From: a virus
Strand: one strand, 5' to 3'
Virus record (IMG/VR): IMGVR_UViG_3300020195_000003
Coordinates: 1 to 42,929 of that record
Length of the DNA: 42,929 nucleotides
In this document: positions 9,486 to 42,929 of the stretch, piece after piece
Layout of the letters: each line of letters begins with the position of its first letter
How positions within the stretch are numbered: position 1 is the stretch's first letter
Notes under the pieces: model-generated
The model's input: only the letters and a program-made list of their open reading frames with translations
Told to the model about the DNA's origin: nothing
The model's database searches: none
Translations under genes and position numbers: made by a program

Positions 9486-11837
9486 TTAACTTCTTTCAGG
9501 CGAGAATGGATCGTATTCGTATAGCAGCTTTCCCCTCGTGTATCCTTGCATTTTCCCTTCAAGTGTGCTTTCTCCTGGCATTTCGTTAAGCGCGAATGTT
9601 AATGCTAAACCGTCCGAAAAATCTGGCGAGAATCCCAATCTTTTCTTGATCTGATCTTTTTCTTCCATTCGGAATTTACCGTTCTGAAAGGTGTAAGTCA
9701 TCGCAGGTAATTCTTTTCGCAACTGCGGAATGTTCGGTAATTTCCCACCGCGCCGTATCCACTCTGCCATTAAAAAATACATCTCGGATCGCTTATTGAA
9801 AAATCTTGGGTCAATGGACTTCCCATTAAACTGAACTTCAATCGGAGACGCACCACCCTGAATCATCGCATCAATAGTTCCCGCGCCGTACCCGCCTGTC
9901 CCATCAACGAATTCCATTTCACTGCCCCAATTAACTTTCGCATTCATCACTCTTGCCGCGATTTCTCCGCTTCTCGCGTCACGCATCTCAACAGGTCTGA
10001 ACGCAACAAGCCCTTGTCGTGGGAATATCACGGTCGCGTCCATGCCAAATCTTGCCGTGTCAACCCCTAATCTTTTCTGAGCAAAACTAAACTCGCTCAA
10101 ACGAATCTGCCGCTTCATCGAATCTTCCACCTCTTGCAAACTCAATAATGAATTTATGGACGATGGCGGAAACTGTCCCAAAATATACGACATGACCCAT
10201 GGATCTTTTCTTCCATACTTCGAGATCTGTTCACGCGCCCATTCAATGCCGATTCTCGGTGAACGCTTCGGGTCATCAGGGTCGCCCGTGATATTTATGA
10301 CATTCCAGTTATCTCTCAACGTCGTCGCCGCGAGATACAACATCCCAGTCAATGACGTCGGATTCCCAGCCTGAATAATTTTTCCCCACTCGCAATTCGA
10401 TAACCCTTGCTCCGCAGATTTTAAAACCGCAACAGGAATGTCACCAGACTCATCAATTAAATACAAAACATATTTACTGTGAAGCCCAGATAAAGTTCGC
10501 CCCTGCTCTTCTTCGTCCGAGGTCTTACTCCATGATCTCGCAGATAAAAACCATGTCTCAGGATGGTCGCGCGCGGATAGTCTTTCTTTCGTCCATTCAA
10601 ACGCAGTGCGTAAAAACTCAGAACGACTTTGCCATTTTGAAATCTCAGGCCATAAATTATCGCGTAAATTATCTCTCGTAACAGCAACTGCAGCTCCCTT
10701 CGGATGCTCGCCCCTCGAACCCATGCACGAAATAAACCAGAGCGCAGCCCACGCTAGTATTGCGGAGTTATGTGTGACAATAAAATCATTCGTAAGATAA
10801 CAATTCCTTTTATCTGCAACGCTAATACATCTTACATTCTCTTTACCGAAAGGCTCTATCGACACCATGTATCTTTTTAAATATCTTTCTTGCGGACAAT
10901 GCCATCTGTCTGATTTTCTTTTTAAAAAAAATGGGTTGAAAGAGGTCGATACGCTTACTCTGTAACAGTCTCTGCATTTAATTTTAATTTTTGAAACACC
11001 GCCTAACGATCTAACAAGCCAAACAACATCTTCTGCCAATCTATGTGATGTCGTGCTGTACTCACAGTGTCCATCGTCTTTATCAATGCACCCGTCTGTG
11101 TCCATTAGACCTCTAAGAAGATCAATTCTTTGTTCTATTTTAGAAAATTTATAAACATCGGGTAGAAACTTTTCATTAAATAGACCAAGACATCTTAGGT
11201 GTCCTGTAATGCCAAGCATGTTTCTTGCCCCTATCTTGAAACCACGCCTTTCAATTTCTTTAAGCAACTGGTCATCAGCAGTTTTTCTACATCCATCTCC
11301 TATCCAAACTCCAACGGCATAGGCATCCATTGGTATTTGATAATTCTTTTTGAAATCAGACTTTCCTTGCATCGGAATTTCAAACTCAACTAAATTTCTT
11401 TTCATTATTTCTTCAGTCGAAATAACAGACCAGCCGTTTTTAGAGTGCTTTGTTGCGCGAACTTTCCAAAGATGTTCTCCGCATGCTTTCGTGGATGACA
11501 TGTCGGAGAATGTTATTTTATAAACATCTCTAACTCCTCGCTCGAAAACTCCGAGAACTTTTGTCGGCTCGCCATCTTCAGCAAGAACGTGATCGCCTGC
11601 TTTTAAATCGCCAAATCGCCGCATTCCATTCGGAGTCGGTATCAGCGTGTCGTGTGGTTGGGCTTTCCCCGGCCCTGCGCAGGCTGTTAAACTTATTCGA
11701 GAATGTTTAGGATCACTCGACCCAAGAATTTTAAGAGCATCTATCTGCCAAGCGTCAGGCTGAATTTTAAAATTATCCGTAACAAACAACAACGGATTTT
11801 TACGCCATTCCGCAATCCGAACCGTGGCTTTACTCAC
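9486..11837 (-). CDS. terL: Terminase large subunit (TerL) interrupted by an intein
   Basis: This is the packaging ATPase/nuclease motor. The mature extein is about 484 aa: Walker A is split by the intein (GPGK before it, S after it), Walker B is VLYLIDES, and the RNase H-like nuclease has LGVDTARFGMD, a central FVDGTGGYGAGTID and a C-terminal FSDGLALTF. I chose the GTG at 11837 (783 aa) because AGGAGG lies 6 nt upstream and it overlaps the TerS stop by 8 nt; the longer frame starts only at TTG (11867). Splicing is needed to rebuild the ATP-binding loop. Confidence 0.92.
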   Translation of the reverse strand: MSKATVRIAEWRKNPLLFVTDNFKIQPDAWQIDALKILGSSDPKHSRISLTACAGPGKAQPHDTLIPTPNGMRRFGDLKAGDHVLAEDGEPTKVLGVFERGVRDVYKITFSDMSSTKACGEHLWKVRATKHSKNGWSVISTEEIMKRNLVEFEIPMQGKSDFKKNYQIPMDAYAVGVWIGDGCRKTADDQLLKEIERRGFKIGARNMLGITGHLRCLGLFNEKFLPDVYKFSKIEQRIDLLRGLMDTDGCIDKDDGHCEYSTTSHRLAEDVVWLVRSLGGVSKIKIKCRDCYRVSVSTSFNPFFLKRKSDRWHCPQERYLKRYMVSIEPFGKENVRCISVADKRNCYLTNDFIVTHNSAILAWAALWFISCMGSRGEHPKGAAVAVTRDNLRDNLWPEISKWQSRSEFLRTAFEWTKERLSARDHPETWFLSARSWSKTSDEEEQGRTLSGLHSKYVLYLIDESGDIPVAVLKSAEQGLSNCEWGKIIQAGNPTSLTGMLYLAATTLRDNWNVINITGDPDDPKRSPRIGIEWAREQISKYGRKDPWVMSYILGQFPPSSINSLLSLQEVEDSMKRQIRLSEFSFAQKRLGVDTARFGMDATVIFPRQGLVAFRPVEMRDARSGEIAARVMNAKVNWGSEMEFVDGTGGYGAGTIDAMIQGGASPIEVQFNGKSIDPRFFNKRSEMYFLMAEWIRRGGKLPNIPQLRKELPAMTYTFQNGKFRMEEKDQIKKRLGFSPDFSDGLALTFALNEMPGESTLEGKMQGYTRGKLLYEYDPFSPERS
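10767..11663 (-). other. Intein with LAGLIDADG homing endonuclease inside TerL Walker A
   Basis: The 299-residue insert (residues 59-357 of the 783-aa precursor) begins AQPHDTLIPTPNG and ends FIVTHN followed by Ser+1. The terminal HN and the N-terminal Hint strand pattern mark a self-splicing intein. Position 1 is Ala instead of Cys or Ser, so splicing should follow the class 2-type route. Two dodecapeptide motifs (AVGVWIGDG near residues 174-182 and LLRGLMDTDG near 240-249) indicate a homing endonuclease. Joining the flanks gives AGPGKSAILAW, a normal Walker A. Confidence 0.9.
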
Positions 11838-12405
11838 CACCCACCTCCTTTGTGTACGACCGATCAATCAAATCTTCCAATGTCACACGCACCGAATGCT
11901 GAATCCGAGTCGTGTCAATGAACAACTGCAAGTGTTTCCCCAATAACTCTAACGCCTTCAACTTATCCGAAAACTTCACACGCCGCGTTACCCCAACCAC
12001 TAACCCTCCCTCCACTATCTCATCACTCTCCACCGCCACGATCGCTGACCGCACCTCCGCAGGAATATCCCCCAATGCCTTCAACTTCCCCAACTCGTCA
12101 TACGCTAACCCTATATCAACCATCCCGATGTTCCTCAACTCCCCAATTATCGACGCTATGTACCACTTCGCACCAGCCGTCTCAGCATTCCCTATCGCTA
12201 TCCGCCTCTCCTCTCCACCTCCACTAATCCATCCCAACACGTCCGAATATCTCACACCCCTCTCTAAACAATACCTAGGCCCGTCTCCTCCATTCCCCAA
12301 ATGTGCGCAAAATTTTTCCAAAAATAACGGATCATCAAGCATAGCCCTCGTCCGCTTCTCCCTCCCTTCTAGACCAACTATCGATTGCTTCGGTATCATT
12401 TCCAT
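11830..12405 (-). CDS. terS: Terminase small subunit (TerS)
   Basis: The 191-aa protein lies directly upstream of TerL with overlapping ends. It has an N-terminal helix-turn-helix-like region (about residues 25-60, including YCLERGVRYSDVLGWISG) for DNA recognition, a helical middle, and a C-terminal part of the type KLKALELLGKHLQLF seen in many small terminase subunits. It would bind the packaging site and load TerL. Its promoter places the transcription start at or within a few bases of the ATG and there is no ribosome-binding site, so the mRNA may be leaderless. Confidence 0.8.
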   Translation of the reverse strand: MEMIPKQSIVGLEGREKRTRAMLDDPLFLEKFCAHLGNGGDGPRYCLERGVRYSDVLGWISGGGEERRIAIGNAETAGAKWYIASIIGELRNIGMVDIGLAYDELGKLKALGDIPAEVRSAIVAVESDEIVEGGLVVGVTRRVKFSDKLKALELLGKHLQLFIDTTRIQHSVRVTLEDLIDRSYTKEVGGE

Positions 12406-12413
12406 GTATCAAT

Positions 12414-12443
12414 ATTATACTAACAATGTCAATCGGACAACAA
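12414..12443 (-). promoter_or_regulatory. Putative sigma70 promoter of the terminase operon
   Basis: On the minus strand a perfect TATAAT (12414-12419) has upstream TTGTTG at 18 bp or TTGTCC at 15 bp as -35. The -10 ends 8 nt before the TerS ATG. A TGTCCGA half-site (12433-12439) overlaps the -35 region and recurs at 12582-12612. Confidence 0.5.
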
Positions 12444-12527
12444 CTTTTTTAAAAAATTTTCGTTTCGTAAATGTTATCCTTACAGGTCCAAAAGGGTTTA
12501 GCGAATTTTGTGGTTAAGAGCTTGATC

Positions 12528-12558
12528 CCCACGGCCCCGCGCGCGAAAAACCCGTGGG
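12528..12558. other. GC-rich inverted repeat upstream of terS, packaging-site (cos/pac) candidate
   Basis: In AT-rich surroundings a GC island carries the inverted repeat CCCACGG (12528-12534) / CCGTGGG (12552-12558) with CCGCGCGCG followed by AAAAA in the loop. Small terminase subunits usually bind close to their own gene, so this is a candidate packaging-initiation or cos region. Palindrome, GC island and position are seen; function is inferred. Confidence 0.35.
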
Positions 12559-12581
12559 TGGGGTACCCGAGTTTGGAATGC

Positions 12582-12612
12582 TCGGACAATTTATATTATA
12601 GGACGTGTCCGA
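12582..12612 (+). promoter_or_regulatory. Operator-like inverted repeat around a weak promoter before the mini-CRISPR array
   Basis: TCGGACA (12582-12588) and TGTCCGA (12606-12612) form a 7-bp perfect inverted repeat with a 17-bp centre that contains TATTAT (12594-12599), a possible -10 for rightward transcription into the CRISPR repeat at 12625. The -35 is poor (TTGGAA at 12573-12578, 15-bp spacing). The same half-site occurs at the TerS promoter. Confidence 0.4.
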
Positions 12613-12624
12613 CTTAGTTTCATA

Positions 12625-12711
12625 GTCGCGCCCCGTGCGGGCGCGTGGATTGAAACTCGGCATTTGGTCGCGTTAGGCCAAAGGCTGGAGGTCGCGCCCC
12701 GTGCGGGCGCG
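12625..12711 (+). CRISPR. Phage-borne mini-CRISPR array, type I-C repeats, one spacer
   Basis: A full 32-nt repeat (12625-12656) starts GTCGCGCCCC and ends TGGATTGAAAC; it folds as CGCGCCC / GGGCGCG, the known type I-C (Cas5d-processed) repeat form. A 34-nt spacer (12657-12690), the usual I-C length, follows. The second repeat (12691-12711) keeps only the first 21 nt, including the whole hairpin, and lacks the TGGATTGAAAC handle. No cas gene is present in the genome. The spacer itself contains a 5-bp inverted repeat (TTTGG...CCAAA). I found no match to the spacer elsewhere in the window by eye. Confidence 0.9.
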
Positions 12712-12718
12712 ACAAAAG

Positions 12719-12806
12719 GGGCAAAAAATAATGCTTTGGCTGTAAATAAAATCTTGACAGCGCGCAATATCCGTGCGATAATTTTTGTAGATCGAAACAA
12801 AATGAA
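12719..12806 (+). repeat. 88-bp promoter element, copy A
   Basis: This segment is repeated at 13806-13893 with three mismatches. It covers an A-rich lead-in, a strong sigma70 promoter, the short 5' leader and the first codons (ATGAA) of the following ORF. Downstream sequences of the two copies are unrelated, so the element behaves as a portable promoter/start unit. Confidence 0.9.
12754..12782 (+). promoter_or_regulatory. Strong sigma70 promoter P1
   Basis: A perfect TTGACA (12754-12759), 17-bp spacer and GATAAT (12777-12782) make a near-consensus promoter. Expected transcription starts near 12789, some 13 nt before the ATG at 12802. The transcript would cover two small ORFs, the UUCG hairpin and the solitary CRISPR repeat. 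Confidence 0.85.
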
Positions 12807-12996
12807 AATATACATTGGCAGTTGGATTGCAAACAGTGGGTCAACTTATTCCGCCGATTACAAATTTACATCACTGCGGGCCGCCAAAAAATCTATGCGC
12901 GCACTTTGCAGGGGAAATGTTTTTGCCGGCAATACTGGCGCATGGTACGTCCGATGCAACGGTGATGTAATAGCGTCCGGCTCTGTCAAAAATTAA
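12802..12996 (+). CDS. Small early protein, cassette A (64 aa), candidate counter-defence protein
   Basis: The product begins MKIYIGSWIANSGSTYS and is a compact, basic, mixed alpha/beta protein (about residues 26-40 helical, C-terminal GAWYVRCNGDVIASGS hairpin-like). The start at 12802 is chosen because it lies about 13 nt after the P1 start site. A longer in-frame extension would run back through the promoter and CRISPR repeat and is not credible. There is only a weak ribosome-binding site (GATCGAAAC). It sits between two CRISPR repeats under a strong promoter, so an anti-CRISPR role is worth considering but is not shown by sequence. The family is not recognised. Confidence 0.65.
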   Translation: MKIYIGSWIANSGSTYSADYKFTSLRAAKKSMRALCRGNVFAGNTGAWYVRCNGDVIASGSVKN

Positions 12997-13018
12997 TTTA
13001 AACAAAGGAAAAAACAAA

Positions 13019-13186
13019 ATGACAATCAAAGATGATGTTCAAGCAGTTTTCGCGCAAGCGATTGACGCGCGCCGGCTATCCGCTGATCCGCGTGACTGGA
13101 ACTACGCCGGTCACTACATGTACATGGGAACAGATAACGGTATTGACGCATTTAAGCATGGCGTCACCCGGCTATATCTGGAGTGA
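13019..13186 (+). CDS. Small hypothetical protein, cassette A (55 aa)
   Basis: The frame is short: ATG at 13019 with an AAAGGA ribosome-binding site 10-15 nt upstream, stop TGA at 13184-13186. The product starts MTIKDDVQAVFAQAIDARR and has an amphipathic helix (residues 3-22) followed by an aromatic segment (YAGHYMYMG) and a basic/aliphatic end. It is the second gene after P1. Its stop lies inside the UUCG hairpin element and the solitary CRISPR repeat begins 16 nt later. Small size, strong upstream promoter and neighbours make it a counter-defence candidate. No homology is recognised. Confidence 0.55.
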   Translation: MTIKDDVQAVFAQAIDARRLSADPRDWNYAGHYMYMGTDNGIDAFKHGVTRLYLE

Positions 13187-13202
13187 CGCCTTCGGGCGGT
13201 AA
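13181..13202 (+). repeat. 22-bp UUCG-hairpin element, copy 1
   Basis: GAGTGACGCC followed by TTCGGGCGGTAA is identical to 14090-14111. It folds as CGCC-UUCG-GGCG, an extra-stable tetraloop, but lacks a U run, so it is more likely an RNA stability or processing element than an intrinsic terminator. The CRISPR repeat starts at the very next base. Confidence 0.8.
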
Positions 13203-13234
13203 GTCGCGCCCCGTGCGGGCGCGTGGATTGAAAC
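13203..13234 (+). CRISPR. Solitary type I-C CRISPR repeat (RNA anti-CRISPR candidate)
   Basis: This is a 32-nt perfect copy of the repeat at 12625-12656, with no second repeat within a spacer's length downstream. It lies at the end of the P1 transcript, right after the UUCG hairpin. It keeps both the CGCGCCC/GGGCGCG hairpin and the TGGATTGAAAC 3' end that becomes the crRNA 5' handle after Cas5d cleavage. Solitary repeat units of this kind in phages are known as RNA anti-CRISPRs (Racrs), which sequester Cas proteins in aberrant complexes. The repeat is certain; the role is inferred. Confidence 0.85.
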
Positions 13235-13256
13235 ATATGACGAATCCCCATAATCG

Positions 13257-13274
13257 GTGGCTGATATAAGCCAC
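13257..13274 (+). other. Short hairpin after the solitary CRISPR repeat
   Basis: GTGGCT (13257-13262) pairs with AGCCAC (13269-13274) around a 6-nt loop, starting 22 nt after the repeat. It could mark the 3' end of the small RNA. There is no U run, so ordinary intrinsic termination is unlikely. Confidence 0.45.
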
Positions 13275-13331
13275 AAAACACGCACAAAACCCGTCAAAAA
13301 CCGTCAAAAACCGACCAAAACCCTAGAAAAA
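13274..13331. other. Phased A-tracts, predicted bent DNA
   Basis: Six runs of 4-5 A start at 13274, 13286, 13296, 13306, 13317 and 13327, spaced 12, 10, 10, 11 and 10 bp. A-tracts in phase with the helical turn are the textbook cause of intrinsic curvature. The core is a near-tandem 10-mer, CCGTCAAAAA twice then CCGACCAAAA. Such DNA is common at origins and strong promoters. Confidence 0.75.
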
Positions 13332-13411
13332 CCATAGCCATATCCAAAGCCATAGATTAAAGCTTTTTAACAATTCAAAAGGTTAAATAGTTTTAATGAA
13401 CGCTATTGCTT

Positions 13412-13425
13412 GTAATAGCTATTAC
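13412..13425. promoter_or_regulatory. 14-bp palindrome in non-coding region
   Basis: GTAATAGCTATTAC is perfectly symmetric. A second inverted repeat, GTTATA-8-TATAAC, lies at 13481-13500. Both are in the 700-bp stretch without genes and could be regulator or initiator binding sites. Confidence 0.4.
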
Positions 13426-13445
13426 TTGCGTGCCGTGGCTATATT

Positions 13446-13767
13446 TGTCTTAGCTGAAATTCAGGATTATCCCGACACGTGTTATAAGTTTATGTATAAC
13501 TGTTCTACATTGCTAGATTATTAAAGTTCTTTAAGATAATGTTGCTATGGCTTGCTATGGGCTGATAGTAATCGGTCGAAGTGTCTTAGATGTCTTAGCT
13601 GATTTCCCTATTCTTTCTAATTTTGAAAGGTTTCCCCGCTGCATCAAAACCCTTCCTCCTGGTATTGATCCTCTCTATAATATATACAAGACATATAAGA
13701 CATAGGAGTCACTCAGCTATACAAAACTGTCTTGATTGCTTTTTTTCTCTACCAAGACAGCAAGACA
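13446..13767. other. Non-coding region with eight TGTCTT/AAGACA motifs; origin or control-region candidate
   Basis: TGTCTT occurs at 13446, 13582, 13591 and 13728 and its complement AAGACA at 13688, 13697, 13754 and 13762. Three pairs are direct repeats 8-9 bp apart. The stretch 13187-13888 has no credible gene, is AT-rich, and follows the bent DNA. Clustered oriented short motifs next to curved AT-rich DNA resemble iteron-type origins or a multi-operator control region. Nothing shows which. Confidence 0.45.
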
Positions 13768-13805
13768 GCCCAATGATAAAAAATCATAGCCTCTAGGTGG
13801 TCGTA

Positions 13806-13893
13806 GGGTAAAAAATAACGCTTTGGCTGTAAATAAAATCTTGACAGCGCGCAATATCCATGCGATAATTTTTGTAGATCGAAACAAAATGAA
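13806..13893 (+). repeat. 88-bp promoter element, copy B
   Basis: This copy differs from 12719-12806 at three bases and likewise ends at ATGAA of a 64-codon ORF. It shows that the same promoter/start unit has been joined to two different small coding regions. Confidence 0.9.
13841..13869 (+). promoter_or_regulatory. Strong sigma70 promoter P2
   Basis: TTGACA (13841-13846), 17-bp spacer, GATAAT (13864-13869), identical in both boxes to P1. It should drive the 13889 frame and the following rightward small genes to about 16626. Confidence 0.85.
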
Positions 13894-14083
13894 GACTTTC
13901 GGCTATTTAGGGTTTTACAAGGGGAAAAAAGCATAGATAACATTGACCGAGCCAAACGCAAGCAGAGCGCACGCATACATCGAGCTGGCTAAAATTCTCG
14001 GGGCAAGAAAAAGCTATGAAGTGAGTCTTTTTTTATGCGAAAGAGACGGCGAGCAAGTGAAGCATTCTACGGATTCGCTTTAA
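13889..14083 (+). pseudogene. 64-codon small ORF with in-frame amber codon at position 16
   Basis: From the ATG at 13889 the frame reads MKTFGYLGFYKGKKA, then TAG (13934-13936), then continues open for 48 codons (ITLTEPNASRAHAYIELAK...) to TAA at 14081-14083. Read through the amber, the product would be 64 aa long and looks like one coherent small protein: a GYLGFYKGKKA strand segment, an Ala-rich helix, and a C-terminal YEVSLFLCERDGEQVKHST that resembles a common small phage protein type (short fold ending in a kDGkpVvH-like segment). Either the gene has been inactivated by a point mutation, or it is expressed by amber suppression, or translation restarts at the TTG just after the stop. Confidence 0.6.
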
Positions 14084-14089
14084 GATCTT

Positions 14090-14111
14090 GAGTGACGCCT
14101 TCGGGCGGTAA
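14090..14111 (+). repeat. 22-bp UUCG-hairpin element, copy 2
   Basis: Identical to 13181-13202 and likewise placed just after the small ORF of a promoter cassette. Here no CRISPR repeat follows; instead a second hairpin (GCCGG...CCGGC, about 14122-14139) precedes the next ribosome-binding site. Confidence 0.75.
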
Positions 14112-14163
14112 AAGCATTAAAGCCGGTCACAATGCCGGCGACAAACAAAAAGGAAAAAACAAA

Positions 14164-14547
14164 ATGAATAACACACAATTTAAACATGCAGAAATGGCAA
14201 AGTATGTAAAAGAATTACAAGAGAATAGATTTAAAATCTTTGTTTACTCTGATTCTGATTCAATAGATTTTAAATTTGAGAAAGATAATAATCTAGGCTA
14301 CTGCATGATAGATGGAATTCGCGGCTTTACTTTTTCGAGCGTCCACAAACCCAATAATCAAACCGGACGCGGATTTAGGACTAGCGAAGAGACTTGGAAT
14401 CCAACATTAAAAGACGCCGAAAACGCTTTTTGCAATGCCCCTTATTGGGCTTCTAGTCGAGATAGGAAGTCTATTGAGAAATATAAAAACATGGCGGATT
14501 ATATGAGCAAAGAGACCGTTCTTAAATATAGAGAATTAATGGCTTAA
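14164..14547 (+). CDS. Hypothetical early protein (127 aa)
   Basis: The start at 14164 is chosen because AAAAGGA lies 10 nt upstream; the same AAAGGAAAAAACAAAATG leader precedes 13019 and, nearly identical, 15374. The product begins MNNTQFKHAEMAKYVKELQ, with an N-terminal helix, a central DFKFEKDNNLGYCMIDGIRGFTF beta region (residues 36-58) and a Trp/Tyr-rich C-terminal helical part. No enzyme motif is visible and I do not recognise the family. It is expressed from P2. Confidence 0.6.
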   Translation: MNNTQFKHAEMAKYVKELQENRFKIFVYSDSDSIDFKFEKDNNLGYCMIDGIRGFTFSSVHKPNNQTGRGFRTSEETWNPTLKDAENAFCNAPYWASSRDRKSIEKYKNMADYMSKETVLKYRELMA

Positions 14548-14626
14548 TTTAAAAAAGGAAAAAACAAAATATAACGAACTAACAGACTCGGCAAAAGAGA
14601 ATGCTCGGAATTGGTATCTAGGCGCG

Positions 14627-14992
14627 ATGGCTGGGGAGTCGTTTAGGTGGGAAGACATATTAGAGGACGCAAAAGCAATTGGTTTAAATATTAATTCGAA
14701 AAACGAAGGGAATTTTATAGAATCGGCTACCGTTTGCGCGGAATTAATTTTGCGCGGTCATGGGAAAACTTGCGAAACATACAAAACAGCCGCGATATTT
14801 ACTAATAGCCTTGAATTGCTCGGAGAAGAAACGGAAGAGGACGAATTGAAATCGGAATTTCTTCGGGCATTGCTCGAAGATTTTAGATTATTATTAAATG
14901 CTAACGTTGAATATGATCAAAGCGAAGAAGCAATATCCGACACGATGGAAGCCAATGAATATGAATTTACTATTGACGGTAGAATTTTTTAA
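14627..14992 (+). CDS. Hypothetical early protein with apparently damaged original start
   Basis: The first ATG in this frame is 14627 (121 aa), with only AGG at -9. The frame stays open upstream and the product reads back as YNELTDSAKENARNWYLGA to the conserved leader AAAGGAAAAAACAAAAT, where a start codon is expected. There the sequence is ATATAAC, as if two bases had been lost from ATGTATAAC. Proteins of this type (xYNELTxxAKENAR...WEDILEDAKxIGLxI...) are common in phages and plasmids and normally carry that N-terminus. So this is an N-terminally truncated but perhaps still translated gene, or a decayed one. Function unknown. Confidence 0.5.
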   Translation: MAGESFRWEDILEDAKAIGLNINSKNEGNFIESATVCAELILRGHGKTCETYKTAAIFTNSLELLGEETEEDELKSEFLRALLEDFRLLLNANVEYDQSEEAISDTMEANEYEFTIDGRIF

Positions 14993-15973: not shown

Positions 15974-16179
15974 CACAGGCAGAATATTTGAACAAAGTTT
16001 TGAAAATGGTTGAAAAATCACTGGAGCCGCAAGAATTCTGCGGACTCTGCGACGAAGCGAGCGCGGAATTAACGGATATTGAATTCAGAAACAGGGATAT
16101 GAGCGTTTGCGCGAAATGCTTTAACAATATGCCGGAAGAATATCCCGAGGATGAAGACCAGCATAGGGGAGACCGCTAA
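15970..16179 (+). CDS. Small zinc-finger-like protein (69 aa)
   Basis: The 69-aa acidic protein contains two Cys pairs, FCGLCDE (Cys24, Cys27) and VCAKCFN (Cys47, Cys50), spaced as in a small treble-clef or zinc-ribbon fold. It overlaps the endolysin stop by 4 nt, so translation is coupled. The acidic tail (PEEYPEDEDQ) is unstructured. It may bind nucleic acid or a host protein; function unknown. Confidence 0.6.
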   Translation: MTQAEYLNKVLKMVEKSLEPQEFCGLCDEASAELTDIEFRNRDMSVCAKCFNNMPEEYPEDEDQHRGDR

Positions 16180-16180
16180 C

Positions 16181-16405
16181 ATGCCGATGATCCAAAAAGA
16201 CGCTCTTGAGGCATTTACAAGGGCGAAGAACGAGGGCAGAATGTCCGCGAGTCCGACAGCGTGGAATTTTTACGGGCATTTTTTGTATGTCGGTAGCGTT
16301 GGCGAGCTTGATCTTTTCAAGCACGTGGCGACGGGTGAATTTTTAAGCGATAGGGCAGACCACATAATTAAGAAGCATAATTTAGAAGCGAGGATTGCAC
16401 CATGA
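16181..16405 (+). CDS. Hypothetical protein (74 aa)
   Basis: I chose the ATG at 16181 over an in-frame upstream one at 16151 because it starts right after the preceding gene and GGGGA lies about 11 nt upstream. The product (MPMIQKDALEAFTRAKNEGR...) has a helical start, a central aromatic segment WNFYGHFLYVGSVGELDLFKH and a helical end. It is the size of small phage proteins with an unknown role. It overlaps the next start by 4 nt. Confidence 0.55.
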   Translation: MPMIQKDALEAFTRAKNEGRMSASPTAWNFYGHFLYVGSVGELDLFKHVATGEFLSDRADHIIKKHNLEARIAP

Positions 16406-25011: not shown

Positions 25012-25085
25012 GGGCGAAGGCTCGTCACCTGTCTAAGTGCCGGGGAACCCCGGCGCATTCTGGAGCGTCAACGGCTCCATCGCCC
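25012..25085 (+). ncRNA. Structured RNA element, cloverleaf-like
   Basis: The segment closes on itself: GGGCGA (25012-25017) pairs with TCGCCC (25080-25085). Inside are an 8-bp hairpin (25037-25044 with 25049-25056, GAAC loop) and a 6-bp hairpin with 7-nt loop (25061-25066 with 25074-25079). The region between 25018 and 25036 pairs only weakly. The shape recalls a tRNA but anticodon and T-loop bases do not fit. It lies between two genes just before the ribosome-binding site of the glycine-rich gene. Confidence 0.45.
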
Positions 25086-25107
25086 GCAAATTGGATGAGG
25101 AGAAAGT

Positions 25108-25368
25108 ATGAACGAAATAAGTTTTAGAAAATATGGAGATGGATCTGGAGATGGAGCTGGATATGGAGATGGATATGGAGGTGGAGCTGGATATGGAGAT
25201 GGATATGGAGATGGATATGGAGGTGGAGCTGGAGATGGAGCTGGATATGGAGATGGATATGGAGATGGATATGGAGGTGTAGGTGGATCTGGATATGGAT
25301 ATGGAGATGGATATGGAGATGGAGGTGGATTTGGAGATGGATATGGAGATGGATATGGAGATGGATAA
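25108..25368 (+). CDS. Gly/Asp/Tyr hexanucleotide-repeat protein, copy 1
   Basis: An AGGAG ribosome-binding site lies 5 nt before the ATG, so translation is likely. After MNEISFRKYGDGSGDG the 86-aa protein is almost wholly GYGDGYG/GDGAG repeats coded by GGA followed by GAT, TAT, GGT, GCT or TCT. Composition suggests a disordered or beta-stacked low-complexity protein. The repeat leaves all frames open on both strands, so only the frame with the ribosome-binding site is kept. The second copy is at 25783. Function unknown; similar GDG/GYG repeat proteins occur in other phages. Confidence 0.65.
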   Translation: MNEISFRKYGDGSGDGAGYGDGYGGGAGYGDGYGDGYGGGAGDGAGYGDGYGDGYGGVGGSGYGYGDGYGDGGGFGDGYGDGYGDG

Positions 25369-25417
25369 GGGTCTTAAGTTTAACCAAAATAAATAGTAAC
25401 AAACGGGGATAAAAAAA

Positions 25418-27745: not shown

Positions 27746-28326
27746 AAATAACAAAAGAATGGCTACTAGAAAAAAAAGCATGTGCGTCTGGTGTTAAATG
27801 GTTTGAGTCTCAAAAAGAAACCGATATTGTCCGGGTCTTGGAATCGCTTAACAACGACGACCACTGGGAATGGGCTAATTGGCTAATGGTGAGAATCATG
27901 AGCTACAAGCAGTACGTGTCATCTGCTGTCTATGCTACTGAGCAAGTTCTTGATATTTTCGAGGATAAATATCCTGATGATGATAGACCAAGAAAAGCTA
28001 TTGAGGCGGCTAGAAAATGTATTGACGATCCGAGTGAGGAGAATAAACAGGCTGCTGCTGATGCTGCTGCTGATGTTGCTGCTTCTGCTGATTCTGCTGC
28101 TTACGCTGCCGCTGTTGCTGCTTCTGCTGCTTACGCTGATGCTGCTGATGCTGCTTATGTTGCTGCTGCTAATGCTGCTTATGTTGCTGCTGATGCTGCC
28201 GCTGTTGCTGCTGCTGTTCCTTTTGTTGGTACCGCTTCTTATGCTGACGCTTATGCTGCAGCAAAAAAACAGATGAGGCTAAAAATATTAAACTATGGGA
28301 TTAAAATTATTGAGGAGAATTTATGA
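27742..28326 (+). CDS. Imm5-like protein with Ala-rich repeat (194 aa)
   Basis: The N-terminal part (residues 1-93: KEWLLEKKACASGVKWFES, DDHWEWANWLMVRIMSYKQYVSSAVYATEQVL, RPRKAIEAARK) matches proteins related to the putative immunity family Imm5, common in phages and polymorphic-toxin systems. Residues 102-178 are an Ala-rich tract (AAADAAADVAASADSAAYAAA) coded largely by GCT codons, likely a long helix or helical repeat. The C-terminus is basic and helical. A neutralising or decoy role is inferred only from the family name. The start depends on the 7-codon ORF before it. Confidence 0.65.
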   Translation: MKITKEWLLEKKACASGVKWFESQKETDIVRVLESLNNDDHWEWANWLMVRIMSYKQYVSSAVYATEQVLDIFEDKYPDDDRPRKAIEAARKCIDDPSEENKQAAADAAADVAASADSAAYAAAVAASAAYADAADAAYVAAANAAYVAADAAAVAAAVPFVGTASYADAYAAAKKQMRLKILNYGIKIIEENL

Positions 28327-42038: not shown

Positions 42039-42461
42039 TCAGGCAAATAATAATGTTAAACTAATTATTCCCCAATACCATATGAAACAAATCAGGCGAG
42101 TTTTGAAATTAGCGTCTTTTGAATCCGCTTGTATGACTAAATTTTTAATGACGAATTTATAGAGCCAAGAGTTTTTCCCATAGGATGGGGCAATCTTGAT
42201 CATGAACGGAGCCGCTAAAAAGATCAGCCACGAGCATGGTTTTAAAAAGAAAATTGCTGTGCAGACCATGAGCGGGATTGCAAGCCAGCGGAGTGTTTTG
42301 TGCCCATGCTCCCAGCCCCCCAGCGTGCCCAGAACAGCTGATGCGCACACAATCGCCAACACCCACCCGAAATGGGGCTCAATCAGCCATAACAGTGGAA
42401 ACTGCCATGCTCCCCAGGTCAGCCAGTCATCCTTTGAAATGCCCCTGAAATTTATTGCCAT
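42039..42461 (-). CDS. Hypothetical polytopic membrane protein (140 aa)
   Basis: The protein has about four to five membrane segments (residues 17-44, 59-72, 76-87 and 121-138), with WLTWGAWQFPLLWLIEPHFGW at the start. A pair of Cys lies within membrane regions. The start overlaps the end of the preceding membrane gene by 10 nt. It lies at the end of the lysis/membrane gene string and before the tail operon. Function unknown; a superinfection-exclusion or holin-like role is possible. Confidence 0.55.
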   Translation of the reverse strand: MAINFRGISKDDWLTWGAWQFPLLWLIEPHFGWVLAIVCASAVLGTLGGWEHGHKTLRWLAIPLMVCTAIFFLKPCSWLIFLAAPFMIKIAPSYGKNSWLYKFVIKNLVIQADSKDANFKTRLICFIWYWGIISLTLLFA

Positions 42462-42757
42462 ATTAAATGCAGGTGTAAAAGAGCGATCGCAACGCTCATG
42501 AACAAAGTCGCCAGGTACATATAGATGCGTTTTTTGCCACCGTCTCGAATTTTGATAGTGACCTCAGTCGACAGTGTTTTTTTGTAAAGAGCCGTGACGT
42601 TTATAATCTCCCAGATCAGCACCGCTGCCAGAATAGAGATAAATGCCCAGAAAAAACCCCAGTGTCCACCGAGCGCCCAGAATATTTGCATCAAAACATA
42701 ACTGATTAAACAGCCAATTAAAAATACCTGTCTCATTTTCTGCGCTGGATTACCCAT
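42452..42757 (-). CDS. Hypothetical three-pass membrane protein (101 aa)
   Basis: Three membrane helices are predicted (residues 10-29, 34-52 and 79-98), with a basic loop between the last two (KIRDGGKKRIYMYL). The start overlaps the lipoprotein stop by 8 nt, so it belongs to the lysis operon. Size and topology would also suit a second holin or a pinholin. No family signature. Confidence 0.55.
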   Translation of the reverse strand: MGNPAQKMRQVFLIGCLISYVLMQIFWALGGHWGFFWAFISILAAVLIWEIINVTALYKKTLSTEVTIKIRDGGKKRIYMYLATLFMSVAIALLHLHLIWQ

Positions 42758-42929
42758 TGATTCTCATATCTCCTTCTTTTGAAATCCACCAACCATCTTT
42801 TTGCGTAACGATGGTGTATGTTTTATTTTCGTTCGTTGGCAACGCAACCCCAGCAATAGCCGTCCCTTTAGGGATATAAATAAAGTCCGTTGCCGCTAAT
42901 GCAGTTTTTGCGTCATTGTTTTTTGATGC
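42750..42929 (-). CDS. Small phage lipoprotein, C-terminal part (starts at 87 across the join)
   Basis: This is the continuation of the frame that begins at 87 and reads through base 1; bases 42891-42929 duplicate 1-39. Residues 30-75 are TDFIYIPKGTAIAGVALPT..., ending GWWISKEGDMRING with TAA at 42750-42752. The stop overlaps the ATG of the three-pass membrane gene by 8 nt. Together the two parts form a 75-aa protein with a lipobox. Confidence 0.6.
   Translation of the reverse strand, partial: ASKNNDAKTALAATDFIYIPKGTAIAGVALPTNENKTYTIVTQKDGWWISKEGDMRING
42891..42929. repeat. Terminal direct repeat, right copy (circular join)
   Basis: Identical to bases 1-39. It marks the overlap at which the circular contig closes. 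Confidence 0.95.

Follow-up and report, generated by a model that had tools for sequence, protein, structure and literature searches.

A solitary type I-C CRISPR repeat behind a predicted strong promoter in an epsilon15/BPP-1-type phage: a candidate RNA anti-CRISPR

The locus discussed here lies in IMG/VR virus record IMGVR_UViG_3300020195_000003, which was analysed over its whole length of 42,929 bases (hereafter the window), and comprises two small open reading frames behind a predicted promoter, a CRISPR mini-array ahead of them, and a single type I-C CRISPR repeat after them. Its features are, in order:

12625-12656, + strand: mini-array repeat 1, identical to the solitary repeat at 32/32 positions, or 33 nt with the preceding A
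12657-12690, + strand: mini-array spacer, 34 nt, self-complementary
12691-12711, + strand: mini-array repeat 2, matching at 21/21 positions and then stopping after position 21, with the 3' handle kept and the 5' handle lost
12754-12782, + strand: promoter P1, predicted from sequence, TTGACA-17-GATAAT, 11/12 matches, extended -10 (TG before the -10)
12802-12996, + strand: ORF A, 64 aa, with homologues 76% identical in a gene-sharing phage (L129) and 49% identical in L150
13019-13186, + strand: ORF B, 55 aa, with a paralogue at 16151-16405
13185-13202, + strand: UUCG hairpin GACGCC-UUCG-GGCG, between ORF B and the solitary repeat
13203-13234, + strand: solitary type I-C repeat unit (candidate RNA anti-CRISPR, Racr), an exact 32/32 copy, GTCGCGCCCCGTGCGGGCGCGTGGATTGAAAC
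13205-13223, + strand: predicted repeat hairpin, -14.3 kcal/mol
After repeat position 21 (13223), + strand: predicted Cas5d cut, placed from the 11-nt/21-nt handles reported for Cas5d (PMC5965380)
13224-13234, + strand: 5'-handle-like tail UGGAUUGAAAC, 3' of the predicted Cas5d cut
13256-13275, + strand: short hairpin GUGGCU-6-AGCCAC, about 22 nt 3' of the repeat, a possible 3' stabiliser
13270-13340, + strand: C-rich, G-poor stretch, in the top 1.1% of the genome's 70-nt windows
13806-13893, + strand: duplicate of the promoter segment, 88 nt, 97% identical to 12719-12806

The two ends of the window share an identical 39-nt sequence. The portal protein, 43.7% identical to that of phiV10 and epsilon15-type phages and with matches in Bordetella phages too, places the phage in the broad epsilon15/phiV10/BPP-1 group; the label "BPP-1-like", given in an earlier reading of the sequence alone, is fair at that level. 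A BLAST search of 12400-14700 against phage records returned no match. Proteins encoded at 1-1458 and 42039-42929 are 81-99% (mostly more than 90%) identical to record-end proteins of another phage, G010 (34.4 kb), several of them at 95-99%; G010 has a different portal, with none matching that of the window, and the breakpoint is almost the same in both, so that the similarity of the ends could represent either a recent exchange of the region or physical ends in common. The phage carries RecE-like and RecT-like genes. The terminase large subunit gene (9486-11867, - strand) contains an apparent intein with a LAGLIDADG-type domain (PF14528, E 8.6e-9, residues 247-305), inserted in the Walker A region with splice-like motifs after CAGPGK and at VTHN, and short tandem-like repeats occur at 25052-25413 (12/18-nt steps) and 28021-28278 (9/12-nt steps, encoding an Ala-rich protein), both possible variable tracts.

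The sequence-only reading had described an exact 32-nt repeat copy standing alone 16 nt after a small ORF, and the copy and the distance are both as described: the match is complete on the + strand, and the stop codon of ORF B occupies 13184-13186. The only other full copy in the window is mini-array repeat 1, and 100 dinucleotide shuffles of the window gave an expectation of zero chance copies, even when three mismatches were allowed. SRUFinder (PMC10651486) defines a solitary repeat unit (SRU) by a full-length match with at least 90% identity and coverage, by the lack of any full or partial repeat within 100 bp, and by an intergenic position. At 13203-13234, the identity to the repeat that many bacterial arrays carry is 32/32, the nearest CRISPR sequence ends 491 nt upstream, at 12711, and no open frame crosses the repeat within 150 nt on either side. 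The word "solitary" consequently holds locally but not for the phage as a whole, which also has the mini-array. An Rfam search found no match, and the stretch directly 3' of the repeat (13235-13285) folds with z = -2.4.

The near-consensus character claimed for P1 stands, with the TG ahead of its -10 as an additional match. No terminator was found from P1 to the solitary repeat; the distance from the -10 to the repeat is 421 nt, which exceeds the 250 bp used for candidate choice in PMC10651486. Beyond the repeat, no intrinsic terminator was found on the + strand, and the base composition of 13270-13340 suggests a possible Rho-dependent end of the transcript. No + strand ORF of at least 60 aa is listed between 12996 and 14092, and thus none in the roughly 850 nt after the repeat. 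The UUCG hairpin reported to stand just before the repeat is indeed present in the gap, but it is not specific to the repeat, as an identical 18-mer at 14094-14111 is followed by none. This second hairpin lies behind the duplicated promoter segment, from which it is separated by a short ORF with an in-frame TAG; each hairpin copy stands after a small ORF region, and since only the first has a CRISPR repeat, the hairpin does not belong to the repeat element. The broken frame (13889-14080, + strand, about 64 codons) reads MKTFGYLGFYKGKKA up to the TAG and continues with ITLTEPNASRAH, and may be either a pseudogene or subject to read-through; TAG is the stop codon of 2 of the 37 larger phage genes checked. 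On the other side of the locus, just before the mini-array, an inverted repeat at 12582-12612 (TCGGACA...TGTCCGA) overlaps a leftward promoter (ATGAAA-17-TATAAT, - strand, 12623-12595) and is a possible operator of the terminase-side operon.

Neither ORF A nor ORF B gave a convincing match to a Pfam, PHROG or NCBIfam model, and no link of either to any anti-CRISPR protein (Acr) was detected; a nearby acr gene is common for Racrs but is no requirement. The low-confidence structure model of ORF A (pLDDT 64) has AcrIF9 as its top PDB fold match (E 0.4, TM 0.32); an identification with AcrIF9 was rejected, since sequence similarity does not exceed chance locally (p 0.32; global p about 0.01), the profile-profile probability is 0.6%, and the TSLxxAK stretch common to the two is lost in the 49% identical homologue. 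An Acr assignment for ORF B was likewise set aside, in the absence of profile or PDB matches and with insignificant fold matches (E 2 or worse). ORF B also has homologues elsewhere, one of which is a region inside a larger phage protein, and this, together with the paralogue in the phage, gives no support for an Acr role.

The CRISPR DNA at 12625-12711 forms a mini-array in which one spacer stands between repeats that match those of sequenced bacteria. Cas5d processing of type I-C repeats gives handles of 11 nt at the 5' end and 21 nt at the 3' end (PMC5965380), so that repeat 2 ends exactly at the processing site and, having kept its 21-nt 3' handle, would still allow a normal 66-nt crRNA to form. 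The spacer folds into 12 bp at -15.6 kcal/mol (z -3.7 relative to shuffles), but of 735 natural spacers from arrays with this repeat, 11 fold as stably, which makes self-complementarity alone weak evidence. No target for it turned up in exact or limited-depth searches, which covered the window itself, IMG/VR (with an exact 20-mer), records of phages and plasmids, and 21 genomes/records. On the + strand upstream of the mini-array, no convincing promoter was found and no leader was seen. In host I-C arrays with the same repeat (L008, L014, L024 and L034), the last copy loses identity after 15-21 nt, and the simplest origin suggested by this sequence likeness is capture of the trailer end of a host array. 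Elsewhere, a spacer of an Ignavibacteriae I-C array (L007, 5820-5853) shares 20 nt with the reverse complement of that array's repeat.

The sequence-only reading had proposed a search of related genomes for the same solitary repeat, and this yielded a decayed copy but no intact one at an equivalent locus. In G010, the 76% identical ORF A homologue is preceded by TGGCGCGTGGATTGGAAC, which agrees with the last 18 nt at the 3' end of the repeat in all but 2 positions, the 5' half of the stem being gone; none of 200 first-order Markov resamplings produced such a match by chance. In L041, whose portal is 70% identical, the region adjoining the terminase genes has a TTGACA promoter and no repeat. 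The decayed copy and the locus without a copy indicate that the repeat belongs to a variable, exchangeable segment. As to the host, the repeat does not name it, since the exact sequence turns up in a wide scatter of genomes (Delftia, Methylotuvimicrobium, Treponema, Desulfosporosinus, Omnitrophota and others). A portal search of about 1550 genomes, covering sampled orders, classes and one phylum, reached at best 41% identity and gave no host, and of 740 spacers taken from arrays with this repeat, none has a convincing match in the phage other than in the repeat itself.

Scanning IMG/VR for the pattern of the I-C repeat gave 84 stretches, from which arrays, edges and duplicates were removed to leave 50 non-redundant solitary I-C repeats, the copy in the window included. 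Besides the window, one further virus record has the exact 32-mer (L003, 300 kb). Of the 50 copies, 46 have a Watson-Crick and 3 a wobble pair at stem positions 6/18, against 14.6 Watson-Crick pairs expected if the two sides were independent, as would be expected if the hairpin matters as RNA; the covariation could, for its part, be inherited from host repeats and not reflect phage selection. About a third of the solitary copies start no more than 30 nt after a stop codon, as does that in the window. One 50-kb phage contig (IMGVR_UViG_3300031673_000079; L047/L049) has three separate solitary I-C repeats, two of which follow a similar ...TCTGCG upstream sequence. On the chromosome of Desulfococcaceae bacterium HSG9 (L029), two lone I-C repeats (at 1679 and 2463; one exact, one with 5 mismatches) sit in the gaps between ribosomal protein genes (rplA/rplJ and rplJ/rplL), and solitary repeats are hence not limited to mobile elements. 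A general repeat-bracketed gene cassette, suggested by repeats about 600 nt apart in a Clostridia MAG (L026), finds no support in the contexts of L026 and L029.

By analogy with tested Racrs, we consider it probable that 13203-13234 acts as an RNA anti-CRISPR that sequesters Cas5d/Cas7 of a host type I-C system, and the function put forward by the sequence-only reading is, on the same analogy, the best supported for an element with the sequence properties of an SRU and a strong promoter upstream. In the study from which the model derives (PMC10651486), RacrIF1 is bound and cut by Cas6f, and its upstream product retains Cas6f and a Cas7f filament; as this product is without a 5' handle, Cas5f and Cas8f are not recruited. 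All nine candidate Racrs tested there were active. RacrIC1, a type I-C element in a Bifidobacterium pseudocatenulatum prophage, shares a bicistronic RNA with acrIC5 and lies 11 nt after that gene (PMC10651486), and alone restores infection by a targeted phage (Camara-Wilpert et al. 2023, PMC10651486). Here, P1 would drive a transcript across ORFs A and B that ends shortly 3' of the repeat. In a host with a type I-C system, which we infer, Cas5d would bind the repeat hairpin in the 3' UTR, cut after position 21, and remain with the upstream product at its 3' hairpin; for want of a proper 5' handle, this product would draw Cas7 and Cas5d into dead complexes. The downstream product would start with a genuine 5' handle and may likewise take up Cas subunits while offering no useful guide.

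The proposal draws on the exactness of the I-C repeat, its zero chance expectation and its identity to arrays in many bacteria, on the strong promoter with no terminator found in between, on the parallel between the 16-nt gap here and the 11-nt gap after acrIC5, on the 50 solitary repeats with their covarying stem pair, and on the survival of an intact repeat in a rearranged locus whose counterpart in a gene-sharing phage has decayed, as well as on the RacrIF1 precedent, the activity of all nine tested candidates and the known Cas5d handles. Against it, a Cas7 filament might be impeded by the stable UUCG hairpin that immediately precedes the repeat, and the locus without a repeat in L041 and the failure of both the portal and the spacer searches to find a host also count.

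The same findings bear on several other explanations. It is unlikely that the mini-array and the lone repeat are the functionless relic of a past recombination with the end of a host I-C array: the resemblance of the mini-array to host trailer ends that lose identity early, the retention of only a decayed 3' half in the gene-sharing phage and the lack of a repeat in L041 would all suit such an origin, but the lone repeat is perfect over 32 nt in a predicted 3' UTR under a strong promoter, and lone repeats with intact stems are kept in many unrelated viruses. Its place in the 3' UTR of a small-gene transcript, shared in position after a stop codon by about a third of the surveyed repeats, could also make the repeat a cis-acting element, at which Cas5d of an I-C host would cut the ORF A-B mRNA, sparing both ORFs and leaving a protected hairpin 3' end, and so alter its stability and hence early-protein output; we found no direct support for this, titration fits the same anatomy and has experimental precedent, and the idea appears very unlikely.

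Two further explanations start from the mini-array. The 33-bp repeats at 12624-12656 and 13202-13234 are identical, direct and 578 nt apart, and bracket ORFs A and B, so that they might serve the loss, gain or integration of a cassette through RecE/RecT or a host array; the phage has genes resembling recE and recT, and ORF A lies beside a repeat remnant in another phage. Short direct repeats are nevertheless poor substrates, the L129 remnant was found on one side only, no relative with a clean excision was seen, and we give a recombination site very little credence. That the mini-array is the working part, turning the host I-C system on a rival element with the lone repeat as a by-product, is hardly more than a slight chance: viral mini-arrays are known to act so (PMC6858448), and the truncated repeat 2 is compatible with a crRNA, but no spacer target was found in any of the collections searched, the spacer folds into a 12-bp hairpin, and no clear + strand promoter precedes it. 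Finally, and with low probability, both repeat elements may be decoys from one captured host array end, the solitary repeat as a Racr and the mini-array as the source of a crRNA-shaped RNA with a self-folding spacer; if so, the latter would load a complete Cascade unable to bind a target, and assembly and targeting would be blocked separately.

With sequestration by the solitary repeat as the preferred reading, the locus adds a type I-C candidate in an epsilon15/BPP-1-type phage to the still small set of tested Racrs. The sequence-only reading had valued it chiefly for the want of an I-C example; with RacrIC1 validated in 2023 (PMC10651486) and some 50 distinct solitary I-C repeats in IMG/VR, that novelty, and with it the main reason for the high interest, falls away. 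What is unusual is a lone repeat near a one-spacer mini-array in the same genome, the mini-array being the less ordinary feature. Its resemblance to the end of a host array offers a way to ask how phages acquire repeats, and the combination raises the question of whether crRNA-shaped decoys coexist with repeat-only decoys.

Among known systems, RacrIC1 is similar in having a single I-C repeat a few nucleotides 3' of a small ORF, with which it shares a transcript and a promoter (both predicted in the present case), and differs in that it follows a known acrIC5 and has been tested, whereas the repeat described here, known from sequence, follows ORFs with no detected Acr link and has a mini-array upstream. 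RacrIF1, from a Thiocystis violascens prophage (PMC10651486), likewise is an intergenic solitary repeat downstream of a promoter and is the source of the model of Cas6f/Cas7f sequestration, but it belongs to another subtype, type I-F, and Cas5d takes the place of Cas6f in type I-C. The mini-array shares with the trailer ends of the four bacterial I-C arrays a truncated last repeat with its 5' part kept, whereas the phage unit stands alone, with a phage promoter directly after it. With the mini-arrays of SPV1/SPV2 (PMC6858448) and of phages (reviewed in PMC11656645), it shares the form of a one-spacer array in a virus with no cas genes, and it is set apart from them by a self-complementary spacer with no target detected, by the lack of a visible leader, and by a second repeat cut at the Cas5d site.
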